A stretch of 64,000 nucleotides of DNA from Actinobacteria bacterium HGW-Actinobacteria-4 (GTDB lineage Bacteria > Actinomycetota > Actinomycetes > Actinomycetales > Demequinaceae), in assembly GCA_002841315.1 (NCBI GenBank), contig PHEW01000001.1, forward strand, positions 124,001 through 188,000. The letters run 5' to 3'. Under the pieces are notes generated by a model. It worked only from the letters and a program-made list of their open reading frames with translations. It did no database searches and was not told where the DNA came from. Shown piece after piece: positions 4,208 to 51,841 of this stretch; position 1 is the first letter of the stretch, and each line of letters opens with the position of its first letter. The position numbers and the translations under genes are program-made.

Positions 4208-5203
4208 ATGGACCAGCGACCCAACGGAGGACCGCTTGCGTTCAACACCATGAGGCTGACGTGGCCCGACCTCCCGCACCGGGTGCGCGACCGCGTCGCG
4301 GACCTGGCTGGCGCGGAGGTGGTCAACGCTCGGGGCACCACCACCGGCTTCGGCCCGGGGTTCGCGGGCATCGTGGACCTCGCGAACGGCACCCGGGTCT
4401 TCGTGAAGGCCACCGGCGAGCACGAGCACCCTTGGTCCATTGGCCTTGCTCGCGCCGAACTCCGGGCCAACGCCGCACTGCCTGAAACGGTTCCAGCTCC
4501 GCGCTTGCTGTGGAGCGACCAAGGAGCCTGGACCCTCGCCGGTTTCGAGTGCCTCGAAGGCGCGTCGCCGTCACTGCCGTGGTCAACCAGCGACCTCGGG
4601 CGGGTCTTCGACGCTCTCACTGACCTCGCGAGAACTCCCCTCACTCCAGGGCACGCCCTGATCCCCATCGTCACGTCCGACACCGAGTTCTTCACCGTGT
4701 GGGAGTCGTTCGCGAAGCGGCCCAAGCAAGAGCGCCTCGCGGCGGCAGCGCGCGGCGGGAGGTGGGGCGAGTGGGCGCTGCGCCACGTAGACACCTTTGT
4801 CGCATGGGAGTGCGAGGCCGCAGCGGCATGCGCTGGCGGTGCGCTCGTGCATGGTGACCTCCGAGCAGACAACGTCGTGATCGATACCTGTGGGAAAGCG
4901 TGGATGGTCGATTGGCCACACGCGACCGTGGGCGCGCCCTGGCTCGACCTCGCGTTCTTCTTGCCCAGCGTTGAGATGCAGGGCGGTGGGAGTGCACTCG
5001 AGCATTTCCGCTCCCATCCACTGGGCGTCTCTGTGGGTCACCGCGAGCTTCGCGCCGTCGTGACGGTGCTGACCGGGTACTTCATGCTGAGTTCGTGGCA
5101 AGACGCGCCGGAGCAGATACCAAGGCTCCGCGAGTTCCAGGCGGCGCAAGCGATTCCCGCCGCACGATGGCTGCAAGCGCTCGAGCCCGAACTCGCCGGC
5201 TGA
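4208..5203 (+). CDS. Aminoglycoside-phosphotransferase-like kinase
   Basis: A 331-residue protein of the APH/choline-kinase fold. The catalytic loop is visible as HGDLRADNVVID (about residues 217-228), followed by the metal-binding region MVDWPHATVGAPWLDLAFFLP. The N-terminal half carries the nucleotide-binding lobe. It probably phosphorylates a small hydroxylated compound. The family covers antibiotic kinases, homoserine and choline kinases and many unassigned enzymes, and no feature here points to resistance. It is monocistronic, with a leaderless-type promoter, and converges on the MMPL gene. Confidence 0.85.
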   Translation: MDQRPNGGPLAFNTMRLTWPDLPHRVRDRVADLAGAEVVNARGTTTGFGPGFAGIVDLANGTRVFVKATGEHEHPWSIGLARAELRANAALPETVPAPRLLWSDQGAWTLAGFECLEGASPSLPWSTSDLGRVFDALTDLARTPLTPGHALIPIVTSDTEFFTVWESFAKRPKQERLAAAARGGRWGEWALRHVDTFVAWECEAAAACAGGALVHGDLRADNVVIDTCGKAWMVDWPHATVGAPWLDLAFFLPSVEMQGGGSALEHFRSHPLGVSVGHRELRAVVTVLTGYFMLSSWQDAPEQIPRLREFQAAQAIPAARWLQALEPELAG

Positions 5204-5265
5204 CGGAGCCGGCCACGGCACCACCGGATGCTGGGTGACCCTGCCGCTAGGCCCGGGCCGCCTGG

Positions 5266-5316
5266 GTTGTGCGTTTGTCACGGACAAGCGCGCCCAATAC
5301 TCGACAAACGCACAAC
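5266..5316. repeat. 14-bp perfect inverted repeat, possible bidirectional terminator or REP-like element
   Basis: GTTGTGCGTTTGTC (5266-5279) and GACAAACGCACAAC (5303-5316) are exact reverse complements separated by 23 bases. The element sits between two convergent genes, where a bidirectional terminator would be useful, but there is no clear run of T. A short dispersed palindromic element is also possible; I saw no second copy in this window. Confidence 0.6.
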
Positions 5317-5348
5317 TCGCGTTATGGGATGGGCAACGCGAGCGCCGG

Positions 5349-7535
5349 CTAGGTCCGCGCGAGCTCGGGCGGGCGCACGGCAGTATTCGCCTCAGCGGGG
5401 TCCCCCTCAAGGTGAATCTCCGGCACCACGCGCTGCAACCAGTGCGGCATCCACCACGCGGCCTTGCCCAGGAGCGCCATCGCGGCCGGCACCAGTGTCA
5501 TGCGCACCACGAAGGCATCGATCAGCACCGCGAACGCGAGCGCGAAGCCCATGGACTTGATGATGACGTCGTCGTCCAACATGAACCCTAGGAACACCGA
5601 GCCCATAATCAGCGCGGCCGCCGTCACCACGCGCGCCGAGTGCGAGAAGCCCGCCACGATCGCCTGCGTGGGCTCAGCGCCACCCAAGTGCTCCTCGCGC
5701 ATGCGGCTCACCAGGAACACCTCATAGTCCATCGCGAGCCCAAAGGTGATGCCTATTCCGATGATCGGCATGAACGCGACAATTGGCCCGATGTACTCCA
5801 CCTGGAACACGTCGGCGAGCCATCCCCACTGGAACACAGCCACCACTGCGCCGGTGGTCGCGGCAAGTGTGAACAAGAATCCCAGGAGCGCCTTCACGGG
5901 AATCAGCACGGAGCGGAACACCACCAGCAGCAGGAGCAACGCGAGGCCAACCACTACGGCGAGGTAGCCGGGCAGTGAGTCCTGTATACCTTCAGCAACG
6001 TCGATCAGGATCGCGGCGGAGCCGGTCACGCCAAGGGTCACCTCACCTGGAGGCTCAAGCGCGCGAATAGCTCTCACCAGTTCCTCGGTCTCTGCGGCAT
6101 CGGGGCCAGTGCCGGGAATGATCTGCAACAGGAACGCACCGCCGTCGGCGCTAGGAATGGGCGGCGACACGAACATCACGTTCGGCAACGCAGCAACGGC
6201 CGATGCTGTTGCGGCTACGTCTGCGGCTCCCGCGGCAGGGTTGTCGGTTTCGGCCAGGAGCAGGATGGGTCCGTTGAAGCCAGGGCCGAAGGCCTCAGCG
6301 AGCAGGTCGTACGCCTGACGCGCCGAGCTCTCTTCGGGTTGCGACTGGTCAGAAGGTAGTCCCAGCCGCATGTCGGCGGCGGGGATCGCCAGGACTGCAA
6401 GTGCCGCGACGCCCACCGTCAGCACCCAGATGGGCTTGCGCGTCACCATGGCTACCCAACGGTTGTTCGACGGCTCGGCTACGGCAGCGGTCGTGGTTCG
6501 GGTCGCATCGGCCGCCTGAACTCGAAGCTTGCGGGGTAGCACCCGTAGCCCTGCGAAACTCATCACCGCGGGCAGGAGCGTCAGCGCCGCGAGCACGGCA
6601 AGCGCGACGGTCACGGCGGCCGCGTTGCCCATGGCGGTGAGGAAGGGGATATCGGCGATGAACAGTGCAAGCAAGGCCACGATGACTGTCGCGCCGGCGA
6701 ACACCACCGCTGCGCCAGCGGTGCCGTTCGCGCGAGCGATAGACTCGCGCACGTCCACGCCAGCAAGCAACTGCGCGCGGTGGCGCGCCAGGATGAACAA
6801 CGAGTAGTCGATGCCCACCGCGAGGCCAAGCATGAGCGCCAGGATAGGTGCGGTAGAGGGCAGTTCGATAGTGCCGGTGAGCGCATACACACCACCCACG
6901 CCCAGGCCCACGGCCGCGAGGGCGGTCACCAGCGGAAGGGCTGCCGCCACGATCGCTCGCAGCATCACGAAGAGCACGATGACGGCCACGAGGACGCCCA
7001 GCGCCTCTGTTACTCCACCTGGCTCTTCCCACTGAGTGAAGGCAGTGCCTGCGTACTCCGCGCGAAGCCCTGCGTCGGTGACAGGGACAACGGCAGATTG
7101 CGCGCTCGCGACGATGTCCTCGGGCAAGTCTGCGGGCGCAACGGTGAAGTTGACGGAGATGAATGCGACCGAGAGGTCTTGCGATACTGCCATGGACTGG
7201 AAGGGGTCCGCAGCAAAGGCCACTTGGTCAAGCTGGCCAAGCGCCGCAACGGCTTGCATGATCGCGGCTGCGTTGGCCGGGTCCGTGACCGATTGACCTT
7301 CAGGGGCCGCAACCACCACCTGCCCGGACGCGCCGCTTGAGGCTGGGAAAACGTCGCCCAAGCGCTCATAGGTCTGGGAGGCAGGGGAGCCGGGAATGCT
7401 GAACGAGATGTCGGCAGGCTCCGAAAAGGCGGCGGCCGATGCTGCGATGCCGGTCAGCAGCGCAAGCCAGACAGTGACGACGAGCCAACGCTTACGCGCA
7501 GAGAAAACGCCTACGGCATGCAGAACTGATCCCAT
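5349..7535 (-). CDS. MMPL-family RND-type transporter
   Basis: A 728-residue membrane exporter in the length range of actinobacterial MMPL proteins. It has a duplicated architecture: one membrane span near the N-terminus (about residues 15-36), an extracellular domain, a block of five or six spans (about 180-340), one span near 370, a second extracellular domain, and a final block of spans (about 520-690). Conserved MMPL segments include GLAVGIDYSLFILARHR and FGLAMDYEVFLVSRMREEH. Family members export lipids or hydrophobic compounds using the proton gradient. It is divergent from a TetR gene that probably controls it. Confidence 0.95.
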   Translation of the reverse strand: MGSVLHAVGVFSARKRWLVVTVWLALLTGIAASAAAFSEPADISFSIPGSPASQTYERLGDVFPASSGASGQVVVAAPEGQSVTDPANAAAIMQAVAALGQLDQVAFAADPFQSMAVSQDLSVAFISVNFTVAPADLPEDIVASAQSAVVPVTDAGLRAEYAGTAFTQWEEPGGVTEALGVLVAVIVLFVMLRAIVAAALPLVTALAAVGLGVGGVYALTGTIELPSTAPILALMLGLAVGIDYSLFILARHRAQLLAGVDVRESIARANGTAGAAVVFAGATVIVALLALFIADIPFLTAMGNAAAVTVALAVLAALTLLPAVMSFAGLRVLPRKLRVQAADATRTTTAAVAEPSNNRWVAMVTRKPIWVLTVGVAALAVLAIPAADMRLGLPSDQSQPEESSARQAYDLLAEAFGPGFNGPILLLAETDNPAAGAADVAATASAVAALPNVMFVSPPIPSADGGAFLLQIIPGTGPDAAETEELVRAIRALEPPGEVTLGVTGSAAILIDVAEGIQDSLPGYLAVVVGLALLLLLVVFRSVLIPVKALLGFLFTLAATTGAVVAVFQWGWLADVFQVEYIGPIVAFMPIIGIGITFGLAMDYEVFLVSRMREEHLGGAEPTQAIVAGFSHSARVVTAAALIMGSVFLGFMLDDDVIIKSMGFALAFAVLIDAFVVRMTLVPAAMALLGKAAWWMPHWLQRVVPEIHLEGDPAEANTAVRPPELART

Positions 7536-12271: not shown

Positions 12272-14140
12272 CTAGTTCTCGGCCAGCACCACGATGCGGT
12301 CGCCAGGACCAAACGCTCGCTTGGTTGCCTTGTGAGGGTTGATCACCACGTCGGCGTCGCCAACGTCGCTCGCAACGCACATGAACCCCACGGCGGTCTC
12401 ATGCTGTGCGAGCGCGGCGGCCACCACGGTGTAGAAGTCCACCTCAACGCCGGGCTTCACGTACCAGCTGGCGGGACGCAGGTAGACCTCAGAGCCGGCG
12501 GCCCCGAACAGCGCGTCAAACACATCCGCGAGGAGCTCGTGTTCAGAAATCTGAGCCATCATCAAGCTGATCAGATGGTCGCTCACAATGAAGTCGTCGG
12601 TTTGGGTCACCTCGGCGAGGCGTCTGTTGCGGTCGTCGAGCATTTCGCTCACCACGTTCAGGGTGGCGCCCTTCTCCTTCACGATCTCGCGTAGTTGCAG
12701 CAGCGTCACGAGCGTCTTTGCGTCGGCGTCCTGAACGCTCATGTCGTCCCGGTACGCCACCACGATGGCGTGGTCAAAGGCCGTCGCATCGAGGTTTAGT
12801 AGCGTCGACCTGCGAGCGGTGTTGCCCTCCACCACTGACACAGTGGAGTGTTGCAACTCCACCAGGTCCACCACGGGGACCTCGGAGACAATGGTCACCG
12901 TCGAACCGTCGGCTACGTATTCGTCGAGTTCCTTGAGCATGTTGGGAACGCGCTTGTTGAAGCCCAAGACCAGCGTGTGCTCCGGTGGTTGCTCGTGTGG
13001 AACAGGAGGCTGCAGGGCGTCAGCGTCTGGCAGTTGCGGCAGTGAGACCGCGATGCTTGAGTCGTCTTCGGCGAAGAGCACCAACTTCTCGCCTTCGGCG
13101 TAGACGTGGCTGGACTCAGGATTCATGATGACGGAGCCCTCGTGCGTGAGGCCAAGCACCGCGGACTCGGCGAACGCGAACAGCACCTCGCCGTAGGTTT
13201 TGCCGTACAGGCTGGGCTGGTCGCTGAAGTAGATCTCGCAGCCCTCGAAGCTCAGAAGTTCCGTGTAGACGTTGCTCAGGCCGGGCTGACGGCTGGTCTG
13301 TGCCGTGATCTGACCAAACTTCTCCGTTGCGAAGATCCAACTGACCTCGTCCTTGCCCACCAACGTGGCGACCTCGGCGTTGCCAGAGTTGCGGACCTGT
13401 CCCACCACGTGGAGCTTGCGTTCGGGGCGTTCGGGGTGGTGGGTCAGGGCGAGCGCCGTCTTGATGGCACGGACGTCAGGGTCCGAGTGTTGCTCGTCGC
13501 CCAGGATGATGATGCTCCGCGCGCCGAACGGGTTCACCAACAGCAGGTCACCTTGGTCGAGGGGATCGCCAGTCCGGCACACCACGCGGGTGCCCAGGGT
13601 GTCCGGCACCTTGGCCCGGATCTCGTCTTCCATCTCGACCTTCTCGCGCTCCGCGAGCACCACGATGGCTGGCCTGCGACGCGACTGATTAGCGAGGCTC
13701 AACTCTTGCACCAGCGGCACTACCTTGGAGTTCCACCCAAGGATCAACGTGTGCTCGCTCTCCAACACCGCGGAGCGGCCCTTGCGGAGCTGCTCCACCT
13801 TGTCGTTGAAGCCGCCGGAGATGATACCGATCAAGGTGGCCGCGATGAACACTCCGGCCACAGTGATGGCGAGCATCGCCAAGCGGTAGCCCCATCCGTT
13901 GTCTGGAGCGATATCGTCGGCACTCAAGGTCCGTAGCAGGTTGACCCAGAACACCTCGAGCACTTGCTCGTCTTCTTCAACGCCATCCAGACGGACATTC
14001 AGCAACAGAATAACGATGGCGTCGACGATCACGATGAGCAGCACCACCGCTGCCAGCACCGCGACTAACGCACCGGTTCCGCGGCTCATGAGGTTGTCGA
14101 ACCAGTACCTGAAACGCGACTGCAGTGATGGACGTTTCAT
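12272..14140 (-). CDS. CASTOR/POLLUX-like ion channel with RCK-type domains
   Basis: A 622-residue membrane protein. Two strong hydrophobic segments lie at about residues 25-48 and 86-110, with a pore-like stretch between them (EVFWVNLLRTLSADDIAPDNGWGYR). A long cytoplasmic part follows, with two Rossmann-like regulatory domains, the first starting at HTLILGWNSKVVPLVQEL and the second at HTLVLGFNKRVPNMLKEL. This matches the bacterial relatives of the plant CASTOR/POLLUX channels. The ion and ligand cannot be read from sequence. An AAGGGGC ribosome binding site precedes the ATG. Confidence 0.88.
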   Translation of the reverse strand: MKRPSLQSRFRYWFDNLMSRGTGALVAVLAAVVLLIVIVDAIVILLLNVRLDGVEEDEQVLEVFWVNLLRTLSADDIAPDNGWGYRLAMLAITVAGVFIAATLIGIISGGFNDKVEQLRKGRSAVLESEHTLILGWNSKVVPLVQELSLANQSRRRPAIVVLAEREKVEMEDEIRAKVPDTLGTRVVCRTGDPLDQGDLLLVNPFGARSIIILGDEQHSDPDVRAIKTALALTHHPERPERKLHVVGQVRNSGNAEVATLVGKDEVSWIFATEKFGQITAQTSRQPGLSNVYTELLSFEGCEIYFSDQPSLYGKTYGEVLFAFAESAVLGLTHEGSVIMNPESSHVYAEGEKLVLFAEDDSSIAVSLPQLPDADALQPPVPHEQPPEHTLVLGFNKRVPNMLKELDEYVADGSTVTIVSEVPVVDLVELQHSTVSVVEGNTARRSTLLNLDATAFDHAIVVAYRDDMSVQDADAKTLVTLLQLREIVKEKGATLNVVSEMLDDRNRRLAEVTQTDDFIVSDHLISLMMAQISEHELLADVFDALFGAAGSEVYLRPASWYVKPGVEVDFYTVVAAALAQHETAVGFMCVASDVGDADVVINPHKATKRAFGPGDRIVVLAEN

Positions 14141-32677: not shown

Positions 32678-32716
32678 TTGTCAACTGGTTGACAAGACGG
32701 ATGTCAACTGGTTGAC
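32678..32716. promoter_or_regulatory. Twin MarR operators in the arr/marR divergent promoter
   Basis: TTGTCAACTGGTTGACAA (32678-32695) and GTCAACTGGTTGAC (32703-32716) share the same palindromic core GTCAAC-TG-GTTGAC, with centres 23 bp apart. A consensus -35 TTGACA lies within the first site on each strand (plus 32689-32694, minus 32684-32679). On the plus strand, TTGACT (32712-32717, 17-base spacing) or GACTAT (32714-32719) could be the -10, and TAGAAT (32663-32658) is the minus -10 candidate. Binding would block both promoters. Confidence 0.8.
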
Positions 32717-35607: not shown

Positions 35608-37005
35608 ATGTCCTCGACTGCCACCTCTGCACCTCGCCTAGCGAGGCAGTTCGCCACGGGCGAGCTCGTAGGCTGGGGCGCGCCGGAGTGGGAGGCACTT
35701 TCCACCGATGAGTTGGTGAGCCTGGTGCAGGAGGTCGCGCAAGCCCGCCGGAGGGTTGACGCGGCCCTGGCGGGAGCATCGGCCGAAATCGCACGGCGCT
35801 CCACTGCCGATAATGGCGCGGGTGACATCGCGCGCCGCAAGGGCTTCGCGAATCCCAAGCAGATGATCGCGGCCGTCACCGGCGGCACCACTGCGGAGGC
35901 TGGGCGGCTCATCAGCGTGGGCAGGACCACTCTGGATGCGACCGCACCGGAGCTGAGACCTGAGGACCGCGTGCCTGGCGAGCCTGAGCCCCTGCGACTT
36001 GTGGAGCTGGCGGGCGCAGTGACCGGCGGATTCCTGAGCATCGACGGGGCGAATGCGGTGGGAGACTCGCTGACGCGACTTGCGCTGGTACTGGAACCCG
36101 GGATTCTGGCCGATGCTGAGCGTCACCTTGTGCAGCGGGCACAGGACCTTCCGTTGGACCGGCTTGCGGTCGTGATCCGCCAGATGGAAGCTGAGCTTGA
36201 CCCTGCTGCGTTGGCGCTCAAGGAAGAGGCGCGGCGCCGAGGGCGGTACCTGAACATCTTCGAGAACCGGCAAGGGGTCGTGGTGGTGGACGGGAGGCTC
36301 GATCCCGAGACCGCCGCGCCGCTCAAGGCCGTGATCGAAACCATGGTGACGGACGTGCTACGCGGGCGGCGTGATGGCTCCGGTGTGGGCATGGGCGATA
36401 GTGCAGGTGTGGATGACCGCACCGTGCCCCAGATTCGCGCGGATGCGCTCGCCACCCTCGCGGGGCACTGCTTGGGTTGCGAAGCGAAAGACCTCCCGCC
36501 TACCAAGACCACCGTCGTGGTGCGGGTGGGGCTCGCGGAGTTGAAGTCGGGCTTGGGCCTGGGTGAGATCGATGGATTCGATCAGCCCATGTCAGTGGAG
36601 GCGATTCGCCGCATGGCCGCCGACGCCGGCGTGGTTCCCATGGTCATGGGCGGGCCGTCCGAGGTACTCGACCTGGGACGCTCGAGGCGGCTGTTCTCGC
36701 CAGCGCAGCGGATGGCCTTGGTCGAGCGGGACGGCGGATGCGCACACTGTCACGCGCCGCCCATATGGTGTCAGGCTCACCATATTCAGTGGTGGGATCG
36801 GGACGGCGGCCGTACCGACCTGTCGAATGGGATTCTGCTGTGCACGACATGTCATCAACGCCTACATCGAGATGGCTGGGACATCTCTGTCCGCGGCGCG
36901 GAGGTGTGGTTCGTGCCGCCGGCAGACGTGGACCGCGAGCGCAAGCCGATTCGCGGGGGCAGGGAGAGATTCGAGTACCGGGGCATGGCATCCGCGGCCG
37001 CATAG
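35608..37005 (+). CDS. DUF222-HNH endonuclease-like protein (13E12 family)
   Basis: A 465-residue protein. The N-terminal two-thirds is a helical DUF222 domain (LVSLVQEVAQARRRVDAALAGASAEIARRS...). The C-terminal part is an HNH nuclease motif with zinc-type cysteines: CAHCHAPPIWCQAHHIQWWDRDGG...NGILLCTTCHQRLH (about residues 377-415). The family is abundant and often multi-copy in actinobacteria, sometimes linked to mobile DNA; its function is not established. It stands alone here, between a heptamer repeat and the beta-galactosidase gene. Confidence 0.92.
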   Translation: MSSTATSAPRLARQFATGELVGWGAPEWEALSTDELVSLVQEVAQARRRVDAALAGASAEIARRSTADNGAGDIARRKGFANPKQMIAAVTGGTTAEAGRLISVGRTTLDATAPELRPEDRVPGEPEPLRLVELAGAVTGGFLSIDGANAVGDSLTRLALVLEPGILADAERHLVQRAQDLPLDRLAVVIRQMEAELDPAALALKEEARRRGRYLNIFENRQGVVVVDGRLDPETAAPLKAVIETMVTDVLRGRRDGSGVGMGDSAGVDDRTVPQIRADALATLAGHCLGCEAKDLPPTKTTVVVRVGLAELKSGLGLGEIDGFDQPMSVEAIRRMAADAGVVPMVMGGPSEVLDLGRSRRLFSPAQRMALVERDGGCAHCHAPPIWCQAHHIQWWDRDGGRTDLSNGILLCTTCHQRLHRDGWDISVRGAEVWFVPPADVDRERKPIRGGRERFEYRGMASAAA

Positions 37006-42323: not shown

Positions 42324-43280
42324 CTACCGGGCCTCGCGATCTACGCGGGCTGCAAGTTCTGTGACGTCCAGCCCGTCCCTGCGCGCCGGAAACTCGTACG
42401 GCAGTAGCCACCATTCCTCGGCGAAACTGGCCGCGTCGCCGGGAGCCAGCCGCTGCATCGGCCCCATGGGCTCCACCTCACACAGCAGATCCTGATAGCA
42501 CCACAGCGACACCGTGAGGCCCGCGATCTCGTTGTAGACGCGGTCGGAGTAGACGGGGAAGCGCTTGACGAAGAGGACGTCCGACGTCAGCAGGTAAGCC
42601 ATCCATCCGGCGCGCGAGTCCATGCCGAGCTTGGGATGGCGAAGCGTGTCGATGACCTGGAGGTACCCGTCCACGACCACCACGTTGGGGTCGGTGGGCT
42701 CGTAGTTGATGGTGGGCTCGGTAGTGTCGTATTGAACGTATCCATGCGGGAAGCGACTGGGCTGCGTAAGCGGCACGATGGCGATGCCGCCGCCCGTCAC
42801 CAGCGTGCGGCTCCAGTGGCATAACTCGTGGGTCTCATCGCTGAGATTCTCGATGGTCTGCGTGCAGGTAAGCCGCGTGGAGTCTTCCGCGAGAGCGAAC
42901 TCCCGCGTCAAACGTACCCCGGTCGCACGGTCAATCTCGCTCACCAGCCGCGCGGTACCGTCCTCACCAACCGAAGCCGTCCACGCCCCCACCCACAACT
43001 GCGGGTGCGGGGCCACGACCTTCTCCGGACCAATGTCGAGCCGTCCGCCCCACGGGTCGATCGCCTGTGCTCCGTCAGTTGAATCAGCAGGATCCCAGGT
43101 CCACCCCGCCTGAGCGGGATCCAATGCCAGCACGTTTCCCTCACCCGGTTCCGCGCCCGTCAGCGCGTACTCCAACACCCTGCCACCGCAGTGATGTCCC
43201 AGCACCACCCGCACGTGGTCGTTCTCCAGCGCGATGCAGTCGCGGTACCCATGGAAGTCCACTCGAGTCGCGCCGGTCAT
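42324..43280 (-). CDS. Galactose-mutarotase-like protein (DUF4380 type)
   Basis: A 318-residue beta-rich protein. Features such as ENDHVRVVLGHHCGGRVLEYAL, LTCTQTIENLSDETHELCHWSRTLVTGGG and FVKRFPVYSDRVYNEIAGLTVSLWCYQD recall the galactose mutarotase-like fold of DUF4380 proteins. I see no complete set of mutarotase catalytic residues, so it may bind or process a sugar in another way. The location beside the galactose genes fits a carbohydrate role. Confidence 0.7.
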   Translation of the reverse strand: MTGATRVDFHGYRDCIALENDHVRVVLGHHCGGRVLEYALTGAEPGEGNVLALDPAQAGWTWDPADSTDGAQAIDPWGGRLDIGPEKVVAPHPQLWVGAWTASVGEDGTARLVSEIDRATGVRLTREFALAEDSTRLTCTQTIENLSDETHELCHWSRTLVTGGGIAIVPLTQPSRFPHGYVQYDTTEPTINYEPTDPNVVVVDGYLQVIDTLRHPKLGMDSRAGWMAYLLTSDVLFVKRFPVYSDRVYNEIAGLTVSLWCYQDLLCEVEPMGPMQRLAPGDAASFAEEWWLLPYEFPARRDGLDVTELAARVDREAR

Positions 43281-43365
43281 GCTTCATCTCACCACAACGC
43301 CACTGGCCCGGGCGCCAAGACCCGCGATGCAAACAACGCACCGTCCCGTAGGGCACGCCGCAAGG

Positions 43366-43379
43366 GGGACCTTCGTCCC
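43366..43379. promoter_or_regulatory. Palindrome resembling a DosR/DevR hypoxia box
   Basis: GGGAC-CTTC-GTCCC is a perfect inverted repeat about 90 bases upstream of the oxidoreductase start. Against the mycobacterial DosR motif (GGGACTTNNGNCCC) it differs at one specified base. An oxygen-sensitive operon behind a hypoxia-type box makes sense, but a DosR homologue is not in this window. Confidence 0.45.
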
Positions 43380-43466
43380 ACCGGCCACCCTCAACGCAGG
43401 ACGAGCATGGAAAGTGCAGAAGTATCTCACCACTCGTAGTTCCCGGAAAGCATGCCTGGAGGCATC

Positions 43467-46400
43467 ATGAAGGGCGTAGAACCGCAGTACCCCGGCATCG
43501 AGACCGTCATCAATGGCAACGGGGCCGTCGCCGAGGTCATGAGACACGTGTGCGATGGCGTCATCGGATACCCGATCACCCCGTCGACCGAAATCGCCGA
43601 ACTGTTCGAGGCAGCCCGCGCTGACGGCAACCTCAACGTCTGGGGCCGGCACCCGTTCTTTGTGGCGACTGAAGGCGAACACTCGGCGCAAAGTGGCGCG
43701 CTGGGCGCAACACTGACCGGTGGACAGTACATCTCCAACGCCTCCTCGAGCCAGGGCATCCTGTACGCGATCGAGTCGCACTTCGTGACCGTTGGCAAGA
43801 AGGTCGGCGGCTTCGTCCTGCAAGTCGCAGCCCGCGTGGTCTCCAAGCACTCCCTCAACGTCATGGCCGGGCACGACGACGTCTACGCGCTGCTTCCCTC
43901 GGGGTACACGATCATCTTTGGGTCTAACCCGCAGGAGGCAGCCGACCTCGCCGCAATCTCGTACCGGACCTCGGCGCTGTCCCTTGTCCCCGTGGCGAAC
44001 GCGATGGACGGATTCGCCACGAGTCACGTCATGAGCGAGGCGCTCATGCCCGAGCCTGAGCTCTTGCGCGAGTACCTGGGAGACCCCGCCTCCCGCATCC
44101 CGTGCCCCACTGTCGCCCAAGACATGCTCTTTGGCGCCAAGGGTCGCGTCTTCCAGCTCGAGCAGTACCTTGACCGCCACGCCGACACCATCCCCGCAGA
44201 TGATGCCGTGGCACTCAAGGCCTTCCTCGACGTCAACGCATGGATGGTCGAGAAGGACAACGCGGGAGACTTGGTCGAGAAGACGGCCGCCTGGATCCCC
44301 GCAGCGCTCAGGTCACAGTGGCGCCGTCAGTGGTTGGGAGCCCACGAGAAGGGCACGCGTCAGCTCGTCCCGGCGCTCGTCGACATTCATAACCCCGGCC
44401 TCACCGGCCCCGTTCAGAACCAGCCAGACTTCCAGGCGGGTGCCGTTGACCACCGCACCCACTTCGCGAACGCGGTTCCCGGTCTGGTTCGCCAGGCGAT
44501 GGATGAGTATTCGGCCCTCACGGGACGCGCCTACTCGCCGATCCACACCTACGACTGCGATGACGCCGACTACATCATGGTTGGCATGGGATCCATCACG
44601 GACGATGTCAGGGCCGTGCTCCCGCACTTGCGCTCCAAGGGCCTCAAGGTTGGCGTGGTCTCCGTCAAGCTACTGCAACCGTTCCCCGAGGCCGAGCTCG
44701 CCGCAGCGCTGACGGGCGCCAAGGCTGTCACCATCCTCGAGCGCTCTGACGACACCGCCTTGACGCGCGCCGTCACCCAGGCCCTTTTCAAGGCGAGCGC
44801 GAACGCGAACGCGACCGGCGAGCAATACGCGGGCATCCCCGCACTCGAGTCCGTCCCGTCGCTCACCACCGCGATCTTTGGTCTCGGCGGTCACGACGTG
44901 CAGCCACGCCACCTCATCGCAGCCTTCACCCACATGGCCGAGGGCAAGTCCACTCCGCTGATATACATCGGCTCCCAGTTCTTTGACCCCAACCCCACTC
45001 CGTCGATGGCCGCGCTCCAAGATAGACTCCGCGAGGCGTACCCCGAGACTGTGGCGATGGCCCTCGAAACGGAGCCCAACCCCGCCGTCCTGCCTCCAGG
45101 GGCGCTACGTATCCGCTTTCACTCGGTGGGCGGCTACGGCACCATTGCCACAGGCAAGCTGCTGACAGACATCCTTGCCGGCGTGCTCGGCATGCACTCG
45201 AAGTCCGCGCCCAAGTACGGCTCGGAGAAGAGCGGCGCGGCCACCAACTACTACATCACGTTGAGCCCGGACGAGGTGCTACTCACCAACGCCGAACTTG
45301 AGGATGTCGAGGTGGTCATCTCGCCAGACCACAAGGCCTTTGTCCACACGAACCCCCTCAAGGGTCTTGTTGAGGGCGGAACATTCATCCTGCAATCCAA
45401 CGTCTCGCCCGAGGAAACCTGGCGGAGCCTCCCCTCGTACGCCCAGCGCACCATCCGCGACAAGCAGATTCGCTTCCTCGTAGTCGACGCCTTCACAGTC
45501 GCGAAGAAGCATGCCCCGACGGTGGAACTCGAGACCCGCATGATGGGCATCGCGTTCATCGGAGCGGTGGTCGGGCACGTTGACCGCGTCTCCCAGGGAG
45601 CACCCCGGCGTGCGATCCTCGAGAAGGTGCGAGCCCAGATCGCCAAGAAGTTCGGCGGCAAGGGTGGCGCCGTCGTGGACGCCAACATGGCCGTCATTCA
45701 AGATGGAATCGACGCGACCGTTCCGGTCGACTACAACGACTCATCGTTCGAATCAGCAGAAGCCGGACCTGCCGCACTACCAATCCGTAGCATCGCACTG
45801 TCGGAGGCGATGTGCCCTGCCGCGGCTCAATCCCGCACCACCGGTCTGTTCGACCCCGGCTACTACGAAGACCTGATCGCACGGCCATTCCGCGAAGGCA
45901 CCATCAGCGAGTCCCCAGTCCTACCCGGGGCAGGCATGTTCATGCCCGTCGGCACCGCCATCGGCAAAGACAAGGGGCTCTTCCGACGCAGCGTCCCGAT
46001 CTTCGACTTCTCCGCATGCACTGGGTGTCTGGACTGCGCTCTCGCCTGCCCTGACGCCGCCATTCCGAACACGGTGCACGAGGTATCCGACCTGCTATCT
46101 GCGGGTATAGCAAAGGCCGATGTCACGGAGACCCAACGCAAGGCGCTGCTCGATCAGGTCCCCGCATGGCGGGACCGCGTTCACGAGATCTATAGAGCCG
46201 ACAAGTCGATCCGAGCCTTCGCGGACGTCGCGGCCCAGGCGTCCGACGCCCTCAAGCCCACCACCCAGGCCAACGCTGAAAAGGTCGTCACCGCTCTTGC
46301 AGGCTTCCCAGTCGCCAGAACCCGACCGTTCTTCGACTCGGTCGAGAAGGAAAGCCCGGGAACCGGGGCGCTGTTCTCGGCCGTCATTGACCCGTGGAAG

Positions 46401-48488
46401 TGCACTGGCTGCCTCGAGTGTGTCGACGTCTGCGGTCCAGGCGCCCTCACCGAGATTGACCAGGACGCCGACGTCCTCGCCGGGCTCGAGGAGCGCTTCG
46501 AGGCGATGACCACGCTCCCCGCCACTCCCGAGCGGTTCCTCGAGGGCTCAACTTCCGTTGACGGCGACCTGAAGCGCATCATGCTCGACCGCACCAACTA
46601 TTACGCGACCGTGGGCGGCCACGGCGCTTGCCGCGGGTGCGGCGAAGTCACTGCCATCCGGCTGGTGACGTCCATGAGCCGGGCCTTGGGAGACAAGAAG
46701 CGGCAAGCCCACATCGCCGAGCTCGAGTCGCTCACATCCCAACTGCGCGACAAGTCCGCCGCGCTCGCCAAGGACGACATCCCACGGCGCCAGCGCATCG
46801 GCGCCGTCATCGCCGAACTCGAGCGCCGCCTGTACTTGTATGAGGGTGGCCCCACCGGAAGCGGTCCCGCCCCCACCGTCATCGCAAACTCCACAGGCTG
46901 CAGCAGCGTGTACGCCTCCACCGTGCCGTTCACGCCCTACATCGACCCATGGGTGAACAGCCTGTTCCAGGACGCGCAACCGCTCGCATCAGGGATCTTC
47001 GAAGGCATCTCGGCGCAGTCGGTGGCCGAGGTTAGGGCGCTCCGGCAGGCGCGACTCGAACTTGAGGACGCCTACGATCCCGCGGTTCACGACAAGCAGC
47101 TGAGCCTGCTCGGTTGGAGGGGTTTCACGTCCGACGAGTTGTCGCTCCTTCCCACCGTTCTCACCATCGGTGGAGACGGCGCAAGCTACGACATCGGGTT
47201 TGGCGCGATGTCACGGGTGTTGGCCTCGGGAACGCCCGTCAAGATGCTGGTCCTCAACACCGGCGCGTACTCCAACACCGGCGGCCAGGCGTCTACCGCG
47301 AGCCTTACGGGTCAGGACGCTGACCTTGCCCGCTTTGGCGGCGCCCACACCGGCAAGCAAGAGGGCCGCAAGGAGCTGGGTTTGCTCGCGGCATTCCACC
47401 CGAACGTGTATTCATGTGTCACGGCGACCGCCCTCCATGGCCACTTCCTGACGGCCACGATGGAACTGCTGGGGTTCAAGGACGGCGCAGCCGTGATGGA
47501 TGTCTACACCCCCTGCGGCACAGAGAACGGCATCGCGGAGAACCTGTCTAGCGCGCGCGGTCGACTCGCCGTGGAAAGCCGCATGAGCCCTGTCTTTGTG
47601 CACGACCCCCGGCGCGGTGAGAGCCTGAGCGAACGCTTCAGCCTCGACGGCAACCCGGACCCAGACAAGACCTGGTCAACGTCCACCCTGCAGTATGTGG
47701 ACGACGACGGTCAGCTCCAGCTCATGACCACACCCCTCACCCCTGCGGAGTTCGCGCTTGGCGAAGTGAGGTTCAAGAAGCAGTTCCACAAGCTCACGGC
47801 CGATGCTGCCGCAGACGCGGTCCCGATCGCAGAGTTTGTCGAATTGCCGGTTGCAGAGCGCACCGGGAAGGTCCCGTTCGTGTTCGCCACCGACGACGAC
47901 AAGCACTTGGTCAAGGTGGGCTGTGCGGCCCCGATCGTCACGCTGGTCGAGGAGCGGCGTCATCACTGGCGCACGCTCCAGTCCCTGGCCGGGCTGGGCG
48001 AGGCCCTGGTTGCGGCTGAACACGCCCGCGAGGTCCAGGCGTTGCGCGCTCAGTACGAGGAAGCGATGACGCTGAGAGACAGCTCTCTCGATGACATCGC
48101 CCGGGCCATGTCTGAGCTGGTGACCTCAAGCAGGGCACCCGCGGGCCTCGACTTGGCGCTCGGGGTTGCTCGCACTGGTGGCGCTGGAGGAGCGGTCAGC
48201 ACGAGCGACGGGGTGTCCGCGACGGACTCGCCTGGGGCGGCGGCAAGCGGAGATTCAGGCGCGCCGGTCTATCTCGACCCAGCCGAGGCGCACCTGTGCA
48301 ACGACTGCGGAACGTGCTACCAGGAGCTGCCACAGTTCTTTGAGAAGACCACCCAGATCATTGACGGCGAGGCCAGAATCGTGGCCCACCTCATCCCCGG
48401 CTCGACGGACAACGTCGAGGTCACGCCGGAGATCGCGAAGCGTATCGCCAGAGTCAGGGCCAACTGCGACGCGGAGATCATCCGGTGA
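43467..48488 (+). CDS. Giant pyruvate:ferredoxin (2-oxoacid:acceptor) oxidoreductase
   Basis: Oxidatively decarboxylates pyruvate or another 2-oxoacid with CoA, yielding acyl-CoA and reduced ferredoxin. All modules are in one chain of about 1673 residues, much longer than usual NifJ (about 1170-1200). The order is alpha (GVIGYPITPSTE), gamma (RIRFHSVGGYGTIATGK), a two-cluster ferredoxin segment (CTGCLDCALACP at 46017-46050; CTGCLECVDVCG from 46401), then the thiamine-diphosphate domain with CRGCGE (46629-46640) and GGDGASYDIGFG near 47169. Extra parts are a coiled insertion after the CRGCGE region and a ~300-residue tail ending in a further cluster motif, CNDCGTC (48297-48317). ATG 43467 has GGAGG upstream; ATG 43452 is possible. 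It overlaps the next gene (GTGA). Confidence 0.92.
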   Translation: MKGVEPQYPGIETVINGNGAVAEVMRHVCDGVIGYPITPSTEIAELFEAARADGNLNVWGRHPFFVATEGEHSAQSGALGATLTGGQYISNASSSQGILYAIESHFVTVGKKVGGFVLQVAARVVSKHSLNVMAGHDDVYALLPSGYTIIFGSNPQEAADLAAISYRTSALSLVPVANAMDGFATSHVMSEALMPEPELLREYLGDPASRIPCPTVAQDMLFGAKGRVFQLEQYLDRHADTIPADDAVALKAFLDVNAWMVEKDNAGDLVEKTAAWIPAALRSQWRRQWLGAHEKGTRQLVPALVDIHNPGLTGPVQNQPDFQAGAVDHRTHFANAVPGLVRQAMDEYSALTGRAYSPIHTYDCDDADYIMVGMGSITDDVRAVLPHLRSKGLKVGVVSVKLLQPFPEAELAAALTGAKAVTILERSDDTALTRAVTQALFKASANANATGEQYAGIPALESVPSLTTAIFGLGGHDVQPRHLIAAFTHMAEGKSTPLIYIGSQFFDPNPTPSMAALQDRLREAYPETVAMALETEPNPAVLPPGALRIRFHSVGGYGTIATGKLLTDILAGVLGMHSKSAPKYGSEKSGAATNYYITLSPDEVLLTNAELEDVEVVISPDHKAFVHTNPLKGLVEGGTFILQSNVSPEETWRSLPSYAQRTIRDKQIRFLVVDAFTVAKKHAPTVELETRMMGIAFIGAVVGHVDRVSQGAPRRAILEKVRAQIAKKFGGKGGAVVDANMAVIQDGIDATVPVDYNDSSFESAEAGPAALPIRSIALSEAMCPAAAQSRTTGLFDPGYYEDLIARPFREGTISESPVLPGAGMFMPVGTAIGKDKGLFRRSVPIFDFSACTGCLDCALACPDAAIPNTVHEVSDLLSAGIAKADVTETQRKALLDQVPAWRDRVHEIYRADKSIRAFADVAAQASDALKPTTQANAEKVVTALAGFPVARTRPFFDSVEKESPGTGALFSAVIDPWKCTGCLECVDVCGPGALTEIDQDADVLAGLEERFEAMTTLPATPERFLEGSTSVDGDLKRIMLDRTNYYATVGGHGACRGCGEVTAIRLVTSMSRALGDKKRQAHIAELESLTSQLRDKSAALAKDDIPRRQRIGAVIAELERRLYLYEGGPTGSGPAPTVIANSTGCSSVYASTVPFTPYIDPWVNSLFQDAQPLASGIFEGISAQSVAEVRALRQARLELEDAYDPAVHDKQLSLLGWRGFTSDELSLLPTVLTIGGDGASYDIGFGAMSRVLASGTPVKMLVLNTGAYSNTGGQASTASLTGQDADLARFGGAHTGKQEGRKELGLLAAFHPNVYSCVTATALHGHFLTATMELLGFKDGAAVMDVYTPCGTENGIAENLSSARGRLAVESRMSPVFVHDPRRGESLSERFSLDGNPDPDKTWSTSTLQYVDDDGQLQLMTTPLTPAEFALGEVRFKKQFHKLTADAAADAVPIAEFVELPVAERTGKVPFVFATDDDKHLVKVGCAAPIVTLVEERRHHWRTLQSLAGLGEALVAAEHAREVQALRAQYEEAMTLRDSSLDDIARAMSELVTSSRAPAGLDLALGVARTGGAGGAVSTSDGVSATDSPGAAASGDSGAPVYLDPAEAHLCNDCGTCYQELPQFFEKTTQIIDGEARIVAHLIPGSTDNVEVTPEIAKRIARVRANCDAEIIR

Positions 48489-51256
48489 CGACCACCACGA
48501 CTTCCCGCGACGGCGCCTCCCTGCTGCCGGAGCCGGAGAAGTTCGGCCCCGAACTCCAGGTGCTCAAGCGGAGGCTTGCTGCCGAGCCCCGCGCATTCCG
48601 CGACCTGTTCATCACCGAGGGTATGCAGGCTGTCGCATGGGAGTTCCAGCAACCCGAACTCAGCGAGGAGTTTGTGAACCAGTTGTGGGCCGCGTTGCTC
48701 AGGGAAGACGACGCGAGCACGCTCCTGATGCGCTTTGTTTGGAACCTGCCCGTTGGCAAGAAACGCGCCTTCATCAGGGCACTGGACCAGCACCTCAGCG
48801 ACCGCTATCCGATGTTCACAGGGCTCTCCGAGCATTGGCCCGCGGGCAATGCGATCCAACCGTACATCCGAGAGGCGGACGAGCGCGCCCATGACTTCGA
48901 ACTGGTGAACAAGGGCTATCTGGGCTACATGGACCTGGGCTATTCGCGACGCGAGATTGACCTGCTGGTGTGGCTCGAGGCGCTCAGAGACAAACAGTGC
49001 GCCGAGAAGCCGTGCGTGCTCGGGGTGTTCCTCGAGGGCTGCAAGGAGCCCACCGGCGGATGCCCGGTGCAAATCAACATTCCCGAGATGTTCGAGCGGA
49101 TTGGCACCGGACGCTTCCGCGAGGCGCTGGAGTTGTTGGAGTCCTGCAACCCGCTGCCGGACGTCACTGGCCGCGTGTGCCCGCAAGAACTTCAGTGCCA
49201 GGGCGTCTGCCTCCACAAGACCGCCATGTCCATCGGGCAACTCGAGTGGTTCCTTCCCGAACGGGAGAAGCTCGTCAACCCCAACGCGAACGCGGAACGG
49301 TTTGCTGGCGTGCGCAACCCCTGGGACGCGGCGACCCGGCCGCCTGTCGCCATCGTCGGCTCGGGGCCGTCGGGCCTCATCAACGCCTACTTGCTTGCCG
49401 CGGCGGGCTTCCCTGTCACGGTCTTCGAGGCGTTCCACGCTCTCGGTGGCGTGCTCCGGTATGGCATCCCTGAGTTCCGCTTGCCTAATGAGCTCATCGA
49501 CGATGTGGTGGAGAAGATCGAGCTACTCGGCGGCACCTTTGTTCGCAACTTCGTGGTCGGCAAGACGGCAACGCTGCAGGAGTTGCGCGACGCTGGGTTC
49601 TGGAAGATCTTTGTGGGCACCGGCGCTGGCCTCCCGCGGTTCATGAACATCCCGGGCGAGCACCTCCTCAACGTCATGTCCGCAAACGAGTTCCTGACGC
49701 GCGTCAACCTCATGCAGGGGCTCCGGGAGGACTACGAGACGCCGCTTCCGGAGATCAGGGGCAAGGAGGTCCTCGTCATTGGTGGCGGCAACACCGCGAT
49801 GGACGCGGCCCGGACCTCGCAGCGCCTTGGCGGGAACGTCACCATCGTGTACCGGCGCACCCAGAAGGAGATGCCCGCTCGAGTGGAGGAACTCGAGCAC
49901 GCCCTCGAGGAGGGCATCGCCCTGGCCGCCCTGCGTTCGCCTTCGGAGTTCGTGGGTCGCGACGACGGCTTTGTGACAGCCACGACCCTCGACATCATGG
50001 AACTCGGGGAGCCAGACGATTCCGGTCGCCGCAAGCCGGTGCCCACGGGCGCCACCGAGACCGTCCCGGCCGACCTCGTGATCATGGCCCTGGGCAACGA
50101 CGCCAACCCGATCATCAAGGACTCGGAACCCCAACTTGAGGTGTCCAAGTGGGGCACCATCAACCTCAGCCGTGAGGGCTCGCAAGAGACCACGCTCGCA
50201 GGCATCTATACGGGTGGGGACGCCGCCCGTGGGGGGTCGACGGCGATCATGGCTGCGGGCGATGGCCAGCGCGCAGCGCGGGAGATCCTTGGCGCCATCG
50301 ACGTCGACCAAAACACGATCACTGCGATGGTCGCGAGCGCCAGGACGTACTCGGCGCGCGCGGCGGCAGTGCCGCGCCTTCTCGCCAAGGCTCACCTGAG
50401 CGATGGGATCGAGGAGTTCACGGTCTATGCGCCTGTCATCGCGAAGTCCGCCCAGGCGGGCCAGTTCGTGCGGGTTCTCCCCCGCGAGGACGGCGAGCTC
50501 ATCCCGCTCACACTCGCCGACTGGGACGCACAGGCAGGAACGATCTGTCTGGTCATTCAGGGCATGGGCACGTCAAGCCTCGAGATGAACGCCATGGAGG
50601 TGGGGGACGCGTTCGCCGGAGTCGCCGGTCCGCTTGGGCAGCCAAGCAAGCTCCACCGGTATGGCGCCGAATCCACGGTGGTCTTCACCGCTGGTGGCCT
50701 GGGCCTCCCGCCGGTCTACCCGATCATGCGCGAGCACTTGCGGCTCGGCAACCACGTGACCCTGATTTCGGGCTTCCGCAGTAAGGATCTAGTGTTCTGG
50801 GATCAGCCCCACGAACGCGTAGGCGCGCTCCAAGCGGAGTTTGGTGACTTGCTCGATGTCATCTACGCCACCAACGACGGGACGTTCGGAGTCAAGGGCT
50901 TCGTGACCACTCCGCTTGAGGAACTCCTGGTGGGCAACAAACGGGGTGAGGGCCGCACCGTCGCCGAGGTCGTCGCGATTGGCCCACCCCTCATGATGCG
51001 AGCCGTTTCCGACCTCACCAAGCCCTACGAAGTGCCATGCGTGGCGAGTCTCAACTCAATCATGGTCGACGCCACCGGGATGTGCGGGGCGTGCATGGTA
51101 CCCGTGGTGGTGGAAGGCAAGCTCGTGCGCAAGCACGCCTGCATTGACGGGCCAGAGATCGATGCGCACATCATCGACTGGGAGAAGTTCCTGCCGCGGT
51201 TCAACCTGTTCAAGGCGCAGGAGCAGGAGAGCCGGGTTCGGCACGGATTGGTCTAG
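48485..51256 (+). CDS. Single-chain NfnB-NfnA-like flavoprotein (ferredoxin:NAD(P) oxidoreductase)
   Basis: A 923-residue fusion. After a ~165-residue N-terminal extension comes a GltD/NfnB-like half. It has two 4Fe-4S cysteine sets (172, 177, 186, 193 and 221, 232, 238, 242), FAD-binding GSGPSG at 292-297 and pyridine-nucleotide-binding GGGNTA at 433-438. From about 640 an NfnA/PyrK-like half follows, with FAD and NAD folds and a 2Fe-2S motif: DATGMCGAC with Cys867 and Cys870, Cys886 in HACIDGPE, and Asp862 as possible fourth ligand. NfnAB passes electrons among ferredoxin, NADH and NADPH, in some organisms by bifurcation. Here the pair would take electrons from the upstream oxidoreductase, to which it is coupled by a 4-base overlap. 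Confidence 0.9.
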   Translation: MTTTTTSRDGASLLPEPEKFGPELQVLKRRLAAEPRAFRDLFITEGMQAVAWEFQQPELSEEFVNQLWAALLREDDASTLLMRFVWNLPVGKKRAFIRALDQHLSDRYPMFTGLSEHWPAGNAIQPYIREADERAHDFELVNKGYLGYMDLGYSRREIDLLVWLEALRDKQCAEKPCVLGVFLEGCKEPTGGCPVQINIPEMFERIGTGRFREALELLESCNPLPDVTGRVCPQELQCQGVCLHKTAMSIGQLEWFLPEREKLVNPNANAERFAGVRNPWDAATRPPVAIVGSGPSGLINAYLLAAAGFPVTVFEAFHALGGVLRYGIPEFRLPNELIDDVVEKIELLGGTFVRNFVVGKTATLQELRDAGFWKIFVGTGAGLPRFMNIPGEHLLNVMSANEFLTRVNLMQGLREDYETPLPEIRGKEVLVIGGGNTAMDAARTSQRLGGNVTIVYRRTQKEMPARVEELEHALEEGIALAALRSPSEFVGRDDGFVTATTLDIMELGEPDDSGRRKPVPTGATETVPADLVIMALGNDANPIIKDSEPQLEVSKWGTINLSREGSQETTLAGIYTGGDAARGGSTAIMAAGDGQRAAREILGAIDVDQNTITAMVASARTYSARAAAVPRLLAKAHLSDGIEEFTVYAPVIAKSAQAGQFVRVLPREDGELIPLTLADWDAQAGTICLVIQGMGTSSLEMNAMEVGDAFAGVAGPLGQPSKLHRYGAESTVVFTAGGLGLPPVYPIMREHLRLGNHVTLISGFRSKDLVFWDQPHERVGALQAEFGDLLDVIYATNDGTFGVKGFVTTPLEELLVGNKRGEGRTVAEVVAIGPPLMMRAVSDLTKPYEVPCVASLNSIMVDATGMCGACMVPVVVEGKLVRKHACIDGPEIDAHIIDWEKFLPRFNLFKAQEQESRVRHGLV

Positions 51257-51271
51257 CGCCGGCGACAGGGC

Positions 51272-51841
51272 TCAGGCGTCTGCAAACAGCCCTGGTGCAA
51301 TGGCCGCCCAGTGGGCGCGAATGTCGAACCCGTCGGGGTCCCGCAGCCACGACAACTGCAAGCCATCAAGGATCGCCATGAACCGCAGCGCGCGCGCCTT
51401 GGCATCAGGAACGTCGGGGCCCATGCGCGCGGCGAACTCGGAGGCGGCTCGGTGGCCGCGTTCAAGGAAGTAGTGGTGTGCGGGGTGCTTGGGGTCTAGG
51501 GACTCGGCCTGCACCATCGCGAATAGGCGTGCTCCCTGAGGGTTCGACGCCATCCGGTCGACGATGCGGTCAGCGACTTCGCGCATTGACGCAAGCGTGG
51601 GCCGGTCGGCTTCGACCTGCTCCGCCACGGCCGCTTGGTCCTTGGCATCTCGATGGTCGAGCACGGCCATGAGCAGCGTCGGCATATCGGCGAAGTAGTG
51701 CATGAGGCCGGGCGCGGACATGCCGCAGCGCCGCGCCAGCCCCCGTAGCGTCAGGCCTCGGTAGCCTTCTTCGGCGATGTAGTCCATGGCGGTCTCGAGA
51801 ATACGTAGCCGCCGCACCTCCGGCGCCAACCGCTCTGCCAT
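51272..51841 (-). CDS. TetR-family transcriptional regulator
   Basis: A 189-residue repressor. The DNA-binding domain is ILETAMDYIAEEGYRGLTLRGLARRCGMSAPGLMHYFADMPTLLMAV (about residues 14-60). The C-terminal domain is typical of regulators of carbohydrate hydrolases (PGLMHYF class). A GGGGGTGG site precedes the ATG. It is divergent from the GH3 beta-glucosidase gene, with a palindrome between them, so it probably controls that gene. It converges on the oxidoreductase operon with a 15-base gap. Confidence 0.92.
   Translation of the reverse strand: MAERLAPEVRRLRILETAMDYIAEEGYRGLTLRGLARRCGMSAPGLMHYFADMPTLLMAVLDHRDAKDQAAVAEQVEADRPTLASMREVADRIVDRMASNPQGARLFAMVQAESLDPKHPAHHYFLERGHRAASEFAARMGPDVPDAKARALRFMAILDGLQLSWLRDPDGFDIRAHWAAIAPGLFADA

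Follow-up and report, generated by a model that had tools for sequence, protein, structure and literature searches.

The known direction of the NADH-dependent reduced ferredoxin:NADP+ oxidoreductases (Nfn), as given in the accessible text of Liang 2019 (PMC6405883), is the formation of NADPH from reduced ferredoxin plus NADH. The same text defines a fused, single-chain type as Pattern C, with members in Actinobacteria, Alpha- and Gammaproteobacteria, and the fused forms are called uncharacterised there and named as needing attention; in the accessible part of Poudel 2018 (PMC6085437), a Mobiluncus protein is the earliest Nfn branch and Pattern C the earliest-branching lineage. Here we describe a Pattern C nfn gene of Actinobacteria bacterium HGW-Actinobacteria-4 together with its upstream neighbour, which encodes a giant protein related to pyruvate:ferredoxin oxidoreductase (PFOR). 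Both lie in a stretch of 64,000 nt (positions 124,001-188,000 of contig PHEW01000001.1, assembly GCA_002841315.1, forward strand), referred to below as the window. On balance, and with modest confidence, we read the pair as a dedicated pyruvate:NAD(P) module in which a ferredoxin tethered to the PFOR would feed the Nfn, its electrons being joined there with those of NADH to form NADPH. The fused Nfn itself is a known form; what appears to be new is the ferredoxin-like arm, together with an Asp at the entry cluster and the almost invariable pairing of the two genes.

The upstream gene encodes 1673 residues plus stop from its first-choice ATG (1678 from an alternative ATG at 43452), which is 499 more than E. 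coli YdbK (1174 residues), and the stop overlaps by four bases the GTG start of the 923-residue fused Nfn. An earlier sequence-only reading of this DNA had described this overlap, a PFOR-type protein of about 1670 residues, some 500 longer than usual, with an internal insertion and a tail with extra Cys, and a downstream chain with NfnB-like and NfnA-like halves; all of this was borne out, with several insertions and four tail Cys. The two most telling features, the tethered-ferredoxin-like nature of the tail and the distal-cluster Asp of the Nfn, lie outside that reading.

Pfam matches to POR_N, PFOR_II, POR and ferredoxin domains, together with the alignment with YdbK, place the domains of the giant protein in the order of a single-chain PFOR, that is, POR_N, PFOR_II, POR, ferredoxin and thiamine pyrophosphate (TPP) domain; TPP_enzyme_C scored under its cut-off (19.8 vs. 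21.9), and PorB-type models matched the TPP region likewise under theirs. The top matches among solved structures were the PFORs 6cin, which we take to be of the Moorella type, and 7plm and 1b0p, presumably of the Desulfovibrio type. The motifs YPITPS, VAAR, GDG and YSNTGGQ, which are familiar PFOR active-site motifs, are common to the protein and YdbK, relative to which insertions are found at residues ~194-306, 876-970 and 1076-1128, with an extra tail after residue ~1400. At the positions of the three usual [4Fe-4S] clusters, all 14 full-length homologues, window included, have the same twelve Cys, which would provide for the three clusters of a single-chain PFOR. Their assignment to individual clusters is presumed from the alignment, where C1055, C1058, C1145 and C1350 correspond to the region of the proximal cluster in PFOR, with an insertion between C1058 and C1145. 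The model for the PFOR equivalog, TIGR02176, matched with 393.7 bits (E 1.9e-117) and a cut-off of 911, so the protein is related to the equivalog and not filed as it. Such divergence from characterised PFORs could point to a substrate other than pyruvate among the 2-oxoacids, an option that we regard as quite improbable, as the single-chain domain order and all four motifs are kept as in YdbK.

At the end of the giant protein, Cys 1611, 1614, 1617 and 1667 are invariant in the 14 full-length homologues and in all 16 tails, each of which shows the CxxCxxC ... C ligand pattern of a single-[4Fe-4S] ferredoxin. A profile of these tails matched the 72-residue ferredoxin 7m1o (E 5.4e-5), and at E <= 0.1 Pfam matches were obtained to Fer4_15 in 16 of the 16 members and to Fer4_13 in 15. 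Residues 1400-1673 were modelled (14 sequences; mean predicted local distance difference test score, pLDDT, of 80; predicted template modelling score, pTM, of 0.45) as a beta-rich part followed by a long hairpin of helices, a disordered segment (1557-1597, pLDDT < 50) and a small domain, whose best fold matches in the PDB were the single-[4Fe-4S] ferredoxins 2z8q and 1iqz (probability 0.97-0.98, E 0.09-0.15). The stretch before this domain (1551-1600) has 50 residues in the window's protein and between 39 and 46 in the other 13 homologues, with many Ala, Gly, Ser and Pro. Its mean identity is 23% (1556-1600) compared with 65% for the ferredoxin-like domain, as would be expected of a flexible tether whose sequence is little constrained. 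The tail resembles a ferredoxin domain with one [4Fe-4S] cluster, carried on a poorly conserved linker.

The downstream protein matched NF009415 with 1638.2 bits over residues 23-922 (cut-off 1519), the large subunit of P. furiosus NfnI over residues 190-601 (E 8e-106) and the small subunit over residues 631-914 (E 1e-67). In its structural model (17 sequences, mean pLDDT 72.6), the target-normalised template modelling score against NfnI was 0.87 for the small subunit and 0.56 for the large one. By sequence, both halves have their FAD and NAD(P) regions, those of the NfnA side included, and residues 1-165 form a mostly helical extension with zero Pfam matches. Asp169 takes the position of the first distal-cluster Cys in all 17 Pattern C proteins and in all 24 readable loci from the window's order (window included). 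All 65 other Nfn-type proteins compared have Cys there; these are the closest relatives and were not drawn evenly (the remaining loci of the named-genome scan described below, plus L006). The four-Cys distal cluster of Nfn is thus not found in Pattern C, and the last two Cys of this cluster are separated by 14-15 residues in 17/17 Pattern C proteins and by 3 in 65/65 others, that is, an insertion of 11-12 residues precedes the last Cys in all of the former and in none of the latter. The remaining six Cys of the large half are common to Pattern C and the other Nfn-type proteins, Glu254 is present in all but one, and the [2Fe-2S] ligand residues D862, C867, C870 and C886 are kept in 17/17 Pattern C proteins. 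Asp169 might serve as a ligand of the distal cluster beside its three Cys; in P. furiosus ferredoxin, a carboxylate likewise replaces a Cys ligand.

The replacement of a cluster Cys by Asp169 could also mean that the arm-fed Nfn-like protein does not bifurcate and simply reduces NADP+ or NAD+, so that the pair would be a plain pyruvate:NAD(P)+ oxidoreductase, a bacterial counterpart of the pyruvate:NADP+ oxidoreductase (PNO) of some eukaryotes. According to the accessible text of Liang 2019 (PMC6405883), sequence does not tell which Nfn homologues bifurcate. This alternative seems unlikely, as 17/17 Pattern C proteins retain both FAD/NAD(P) regions, Glu254 and the [2Fe-2S] ligands, which would all be superfluous in a plain reductase.

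The pairing of both genes was followed in a scan of named genomes, in which 80 loci were kept among the matches listed, a scope that holds for all the named loci below; Mobiluncus curtisii was outside this sample. Full-length or near-full-length homologues of the fused Nfn were found in at least 16 loci, with 65-87% identity to the window, and the identity of the PFOR was 58-82% over 13 full-length homologues. The actinobacterial carriers were Actinotalea, Cellulomonas, Demequinaceae, Bifidobacteriaceae, Propionibacteriaceae and other metagenome-assembled genomes (MAGs), and the proteobacterial ones Rhodopila globiformis, two further alphaproteobacterial MAGs, an Accumulibacter MAG and a gammaproteobacterial MAG. 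In 15 of the 16 loci, the gene immediately upstream, on the same strand, encodes the giant PFOR, with -11 to +234 bases from script-chosen stop to start; it is truncated by the contig end in L018 and split over two frames in L022, where the locus contains two N. In the window's order, the fused Nfn was detected in 25 of 396 genomes and 10 of 109 genera; 26 loci were checked (these 25 carriers and that of genome G013), two of them cut at a contig edge, and a PFOR tail with the four Cys was found directly upstream of the nfn gene in all 24 that were testable, window included. The order set and the named set are not independent, as some named loci probably recur among the order genomes. When the phylum was sampled evenly, with the limits set, either protein was found in the window's genome only (1/396), and thus no statistics were drawn from this sample.

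As the same pair occurs with homologues in other genomes, a chance arrangement can be ruled out, and the earlier proposal of a dedicated two-protein module is well supported by this adjacency, also because no other gene family widely shared beside the pair was seen within up to 9 kb of the named loci. A larger conserved operon was rejected, as clusters of neighbours spanned two loci at most, bar one of seven loci made up of frames antisense to NfnL-type genes; this clustering used simple ORF calls in GC-rich DNA, with antisense frames displacing real genes in several loci and contig ends cutting several others. Another NfnL-type gene is present in the flank of three of the 16 named loci (L017, L022 and L025): in the alphaproteobacterial MAG L022 it is a separate NfnL-like gene (12545-14140) directly downstream of the pair's surroundings, and in L025 a similar gene lies near the pair (about 559-2058, minus strand). 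Plasmid carriage was rejected, with zero plasmid matches at >= 60% identity. Pairwise distances for PFOR and Nfn agree (r 0.88, 0/10000 permutations, 16 pairs), as they would for any two co-inherited genes.

In the exception among the named loci (L020, nfn at 4770-7472), other sequence lies upstream, and elsewhere in this draft PFOR-type matches reached 30-36% identity only. Keeping a Pattern C Nfn without the giant PFOR is what could be expected of an ordinary co-operon, in which free cellular ferredoxins would link both enzymes and the tail would be structural or vestigial. Such an arrangement appears quite improbable to us, since the tail Cys are invariant in 16/16 while the linker drifts freely, and since the pairing is nearly constant. 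Moreover, the Nfn of L020, without a giant PFOR, also has a shortened N-terminus, which supports the reading of the pair as a module and makes this locus a natural test of the role of the N-terminal extension.

Because of this anatomy, a route for low-potential electrons from pyruvate through the tethered ferredoxin to the distal cluster of the Nfn can be proposed. The PFOR-like protein would convert pyruvate, or a close 2-oxoacid, and CoA to acyl-CoA and CO2, and the two electrons would pass singly through three internal [4Fe-4S] clusters to a fourth one in the swinging ferredoxin domain. This arm may then dock physically at the distal cluster of the Pattern C Nfn, formed by three Cys and Asp169, and unload its electrons, which the bifurcating FAD would join with those of NADH, arriving through the NfnS-like half, in the reduction of NADP+. 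The net reaction of such a confurcation would be pyruvate + CoA + NADH + 2 NADP+ -> acetyl-CoA + CO2 + NAD+ + 2 NADPH. In carriers that also have a fused NfnL-HydA hydrogenase, the NADPH could drive fermentative H2 evolution.

This proposal was set against the metabolic background of the carriers. In the genus of the window's genome, the E1 component of pyruvate dehydrogenase (PDH) is encoded in 24 of 25 genomes (37/39 among relatives), and a pyruvate formate-lyase (PFL)-like enzyme and COX1 in 25 of 25 each, the window's genome being included in all three cases; these bacteria look therefore facultative, with other routes for pyruvate. Replacement of PDH or PFL by the pair was rejected, since both are present in the window's genome. 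FeFe hydrogenase was detected in 4/4 bearers of the pair within the genus vs. 1/21 other genomes (Fisher p 4e-4, relatedness ignored), and in the order in 12/26 bearers vs. 1/54 non-bearers (p 1.7e-6, relatedness ignored). In family f91 it was found in 6/15 bearers and also in the sole non-bearer examined, and in family f15 in 0/4 bearers and 0/2 non-bearers, so that outside the genus the association is confounded, following families. Our confidence in the module is unchanged by this, because the association outside the genus was no basis for it. In the phylum sample the enzyme was found in 69 of 396 genomes, and all those listed except the window's genome lie outside the window's class.

The hydrogenase of the window's genome, encoded outside the window (G000:C1:492711-495887; L094:6712-9888, minus strand), is a single chain of 1058 residues that combines a 2Fe-2S domain, an NfnL/GltD-like FAD/NAD(P)H domain and an H-cluster domain. 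This kind is present in seven of the 12 hydrogenase-bearing carriers of the order and in the exception G507, while the other five resemble it weakly; in Cellulomonas chitinilytica (L017), a NfnL-HydA fused hydrogenase starts ~330 bp from the PFOR start, divergently. By its domains, the protein recalls HydDB group A2, for which the accessible description gives as a rule a GltD-type gene downstream of the catalytic subunit and calls the role undetermined (PMC5037454); in the window's genome, the GltD/NfnL-type domain is fused in-chain instead of being encoded downstream.

The opposite direction has also to be considered, with NADPH being bifurcated and the arm carrying electrons into the PFOR, which would then synthesise pyruvate, or else supplying nitrogenase or hydrogenase. 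Among the carriers are the phototroph Rhodopila globiformis and the Accumulibacter MAG, which would suit such a role, and another fused Nfn, AadN, has been proposed to reduce ferredoxin in the accessible text of Lewis 2023 (PMC9973337). We consider this direction rather improbable, as the sugar-use neighbours, PFL-like gene and hydrogenase of the window's genome fit a fermenter, and a tethered carrier would be ill-suited to serve outside enzymes.

Several observations weigh against the module as proposed. The PDH and PFL-like genes of the window's genome mean that the pair is not its sole pyruvate route, and FeFe hydrogenase was not seen in 14 of the 26 order bearers nor in eight of the 16 named-locus genomes (the other eight have it), many of them drafts, which weakens hydrogen metabolism as a general role. 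The gene trees conflict on L096/L097, placed with the window by PFOR (0.92) and with the proteobacterial group by Nfn (0.97), and therefore some exchange is possible. Regarding the giant protein, its TIGR02176 score is far below the cut-off (394 vs. 911 bits), the Pfam scores of the window's tail are under the curated cut-offs (17.4 vs. 22.4 bits for Fer4_15), a single-sequence PDB search with this tail gave 7m1o with E 0.09, behind a spurious neuraminidase, and the fold search of the PDB with the tail model (pTM 0.45) gave zero matches at E <= 0.001. Finally, the regions near the clusters are poorly defined in the Nfn model (pLDDT < 50 at 172-194 and 230-246), and loss of a Cys ligand could result in a 3Fe cluster or in an absent distal cluster, and hence in no bifurcation.

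With these points in mind, the view of the pair as an insulated machine, in which a swinging-arm PFOR delivers its electrons to a bifurcating transhydrogenase with an Asp-re-ligated entry cluster, also in bacteria able to respire oxygen, is put forward tentatively, as somewhat less than probable. A covalently tethered ferredoxin, if true, would shield low-potential electrons from oxygen and competing acceptors, something that the engineering of H2 and NADPH supply also aims for, and the extended PFOR, as a near-constant partner, would give Pattern C Nfn a concrete role.

The features of the pair are collected in Table 1. Upstream, a mutarotase-like gene (42324..43280) is divergent from it, and downstream a gene for a weakly BetI-like regulator (51272..51841) is convergent; the GC content around the pair, 0.65, is the same as in the window overall. 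Given this typical GC, the orientation of both neighbours and the four-base overlap, the pair looks like a two-gene operon. More distant neighbours in the window include sugar-use genes, of which galT scored above its curated cut-off, whereas a LacI-type regulator and an arabinopyranosidase-like glycosidase were both below theirs. No match was obtained to a Rex-like site near the PFOR gene or to a sigma-70-type promoter in window positions 43250-51600. Upstream FNR-like sites with 1-2 mismatches in L024, L021 and L028 and a CRP-like site with one mismatch in L019, both without a chance control, were too weak for a redox regulatory site to be claimed. Elsewhere in the window, the palindrome TTGTCAACTGGTTGACAA (32678-32695), with two mismatches to the Rex consensus, lies shortly before an ORF at 32725 and is possibly the operator of another regulator, and the ORF at 35608-37005 (465 residues) has a weak C-terminal match to an IscB model (E 3.5e-6, far under the cut-off) and perhaps encodes an HNH-type endonuclease domain.

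Table 1. Location of the two genes and of their predicted parts, in window positions.
Feature	Position	Strand	Basis
Giant PFOR-like 2-oxoacid oxidoreductase	43467..48488	+	ORF, Pfam/NCBIfam, PDB matches, YdbK alignment
PFOR domain I (POR_N, residues 26-201), YPITPS and VAAR kept	43542..44069	+	Pfam, alignments
Insertion vs. YdbK, residues 194-306, family-conserved, 69% mean identity to window	44046..44384	+	Alignments
First ferredoxin-domain Cys motif, C851xxCxxCxxxC861	46017..46049	+	14/14 homologues
Second ferredoxin-domain Cys motif, C979xxCxxCxxxC989	46401..46433	+	14/14 homologues
TPP region, invariant C1055, C1058, C1145, C1350	46629..47516	+	14/14 homologues, alignments
Apparently flexible low-complexity linker, residues ~1556-1600	48132..48266	+	pLDDT, length and identity across 14 homologues
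Putative tethered single-[4Fe-4S] ferredoxin-like domain, residues 1601-1673, C1611/C1614/C1617/C1667	48267..48485	+	Profile, Pfam, fold
Pattern C fused Nfn, NfnL-like then NfnS-like	48485..51256	+	NF009415, P. furiosus NfnI matches, model
Helical N-terminal extension, residues 1-165	48485..48979	+	No Pfam match, model
NfnL-like half (two predicted Fe-S clusters, FAD, NADPH-type site)	48980..50299	+	Pfam, NfnI alignment, model
Asp169 at first distal-cluster Cys position	48989..48991	+	17/17 Pattern C vs. 65/65 Cys
NfnS-like half (FAD, NAD, [2Fe-2S] D862, C867, C870, C886)	50366..51229	+	Pfam, NfnI alignment, model

The coupling of 2-oxoacid oxidation to NAD(P) reduction, as the sequence-only reading had proposed, is a reasonable deduction from the domains found. 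A literature search, mostly of titles and abstract openings, found no PFOR with a tethered ferredoxin, no description of the Pattern C pairing, no mention of the distal-cluster Asp, no role assigned to Pattern C Nfn and no characterised homologue of this type with another role.

Compared with the single-chain PFORs of Moorella (6cin) and Desulfovibrio (1b0p) and with YdbK, the giant protein is alike in domains I-III, the ferredoxin and TPP domains and the Cys of the three clusters, but it has several insertions and a ferredoxin-like end on a linker, and scores under the TIGR02176 cut-off. This ferredoxin arm is comparable to the lipoyl arm of PDH. The PNO of Euglena and Cryptosporidium is also a PFOR joined to an NADP+-reducing flavoprotein, although as a single fusion with a P450-reductase-like domain and without Nfn or a tethered ferredoxin. 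With respect to the two-subunit NfnAB/NfnLS of P. furiosus (5jca) and T. maritima (4ylf), the cofactor regions of both halves are alike by sequence, whereas the window's Nfn is one chain with a 165-residue N-terminal extension, Asp169 and 11-12 extra residues. A single-chain Nfn had been regarded as unusual, and its chemistry as little described in actinobacteria; both points need correcting, since fusions of Patterns B and C have been published and have entries in NCBIfam, and the accessible text of Liang 2019 (PMC6405883) already lists Actinobacteria among the taxa with Pattern C. The window's protein agrees with Pattern C (NF009415/PRK12779) in its L-then-S order, taxa and NCBIfam score and in being ~200 residues longer than other fusions; the accessible text states neither a partner PFOR nor the Asp, PFOR being named only among the abbreviations of Figure 2, so that the adjacency may have been drawn there. 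AadN of Rhodopseudomonas palustris is likewise an Nfn in one chain, and genetic evidence gives it a part in electron transfer, but it belongs to Pattern B according to its authors in the accessible text (Lewis 2023, PMC9973337) and is tied to benzoyl-CoA reductase, not to PFOR.

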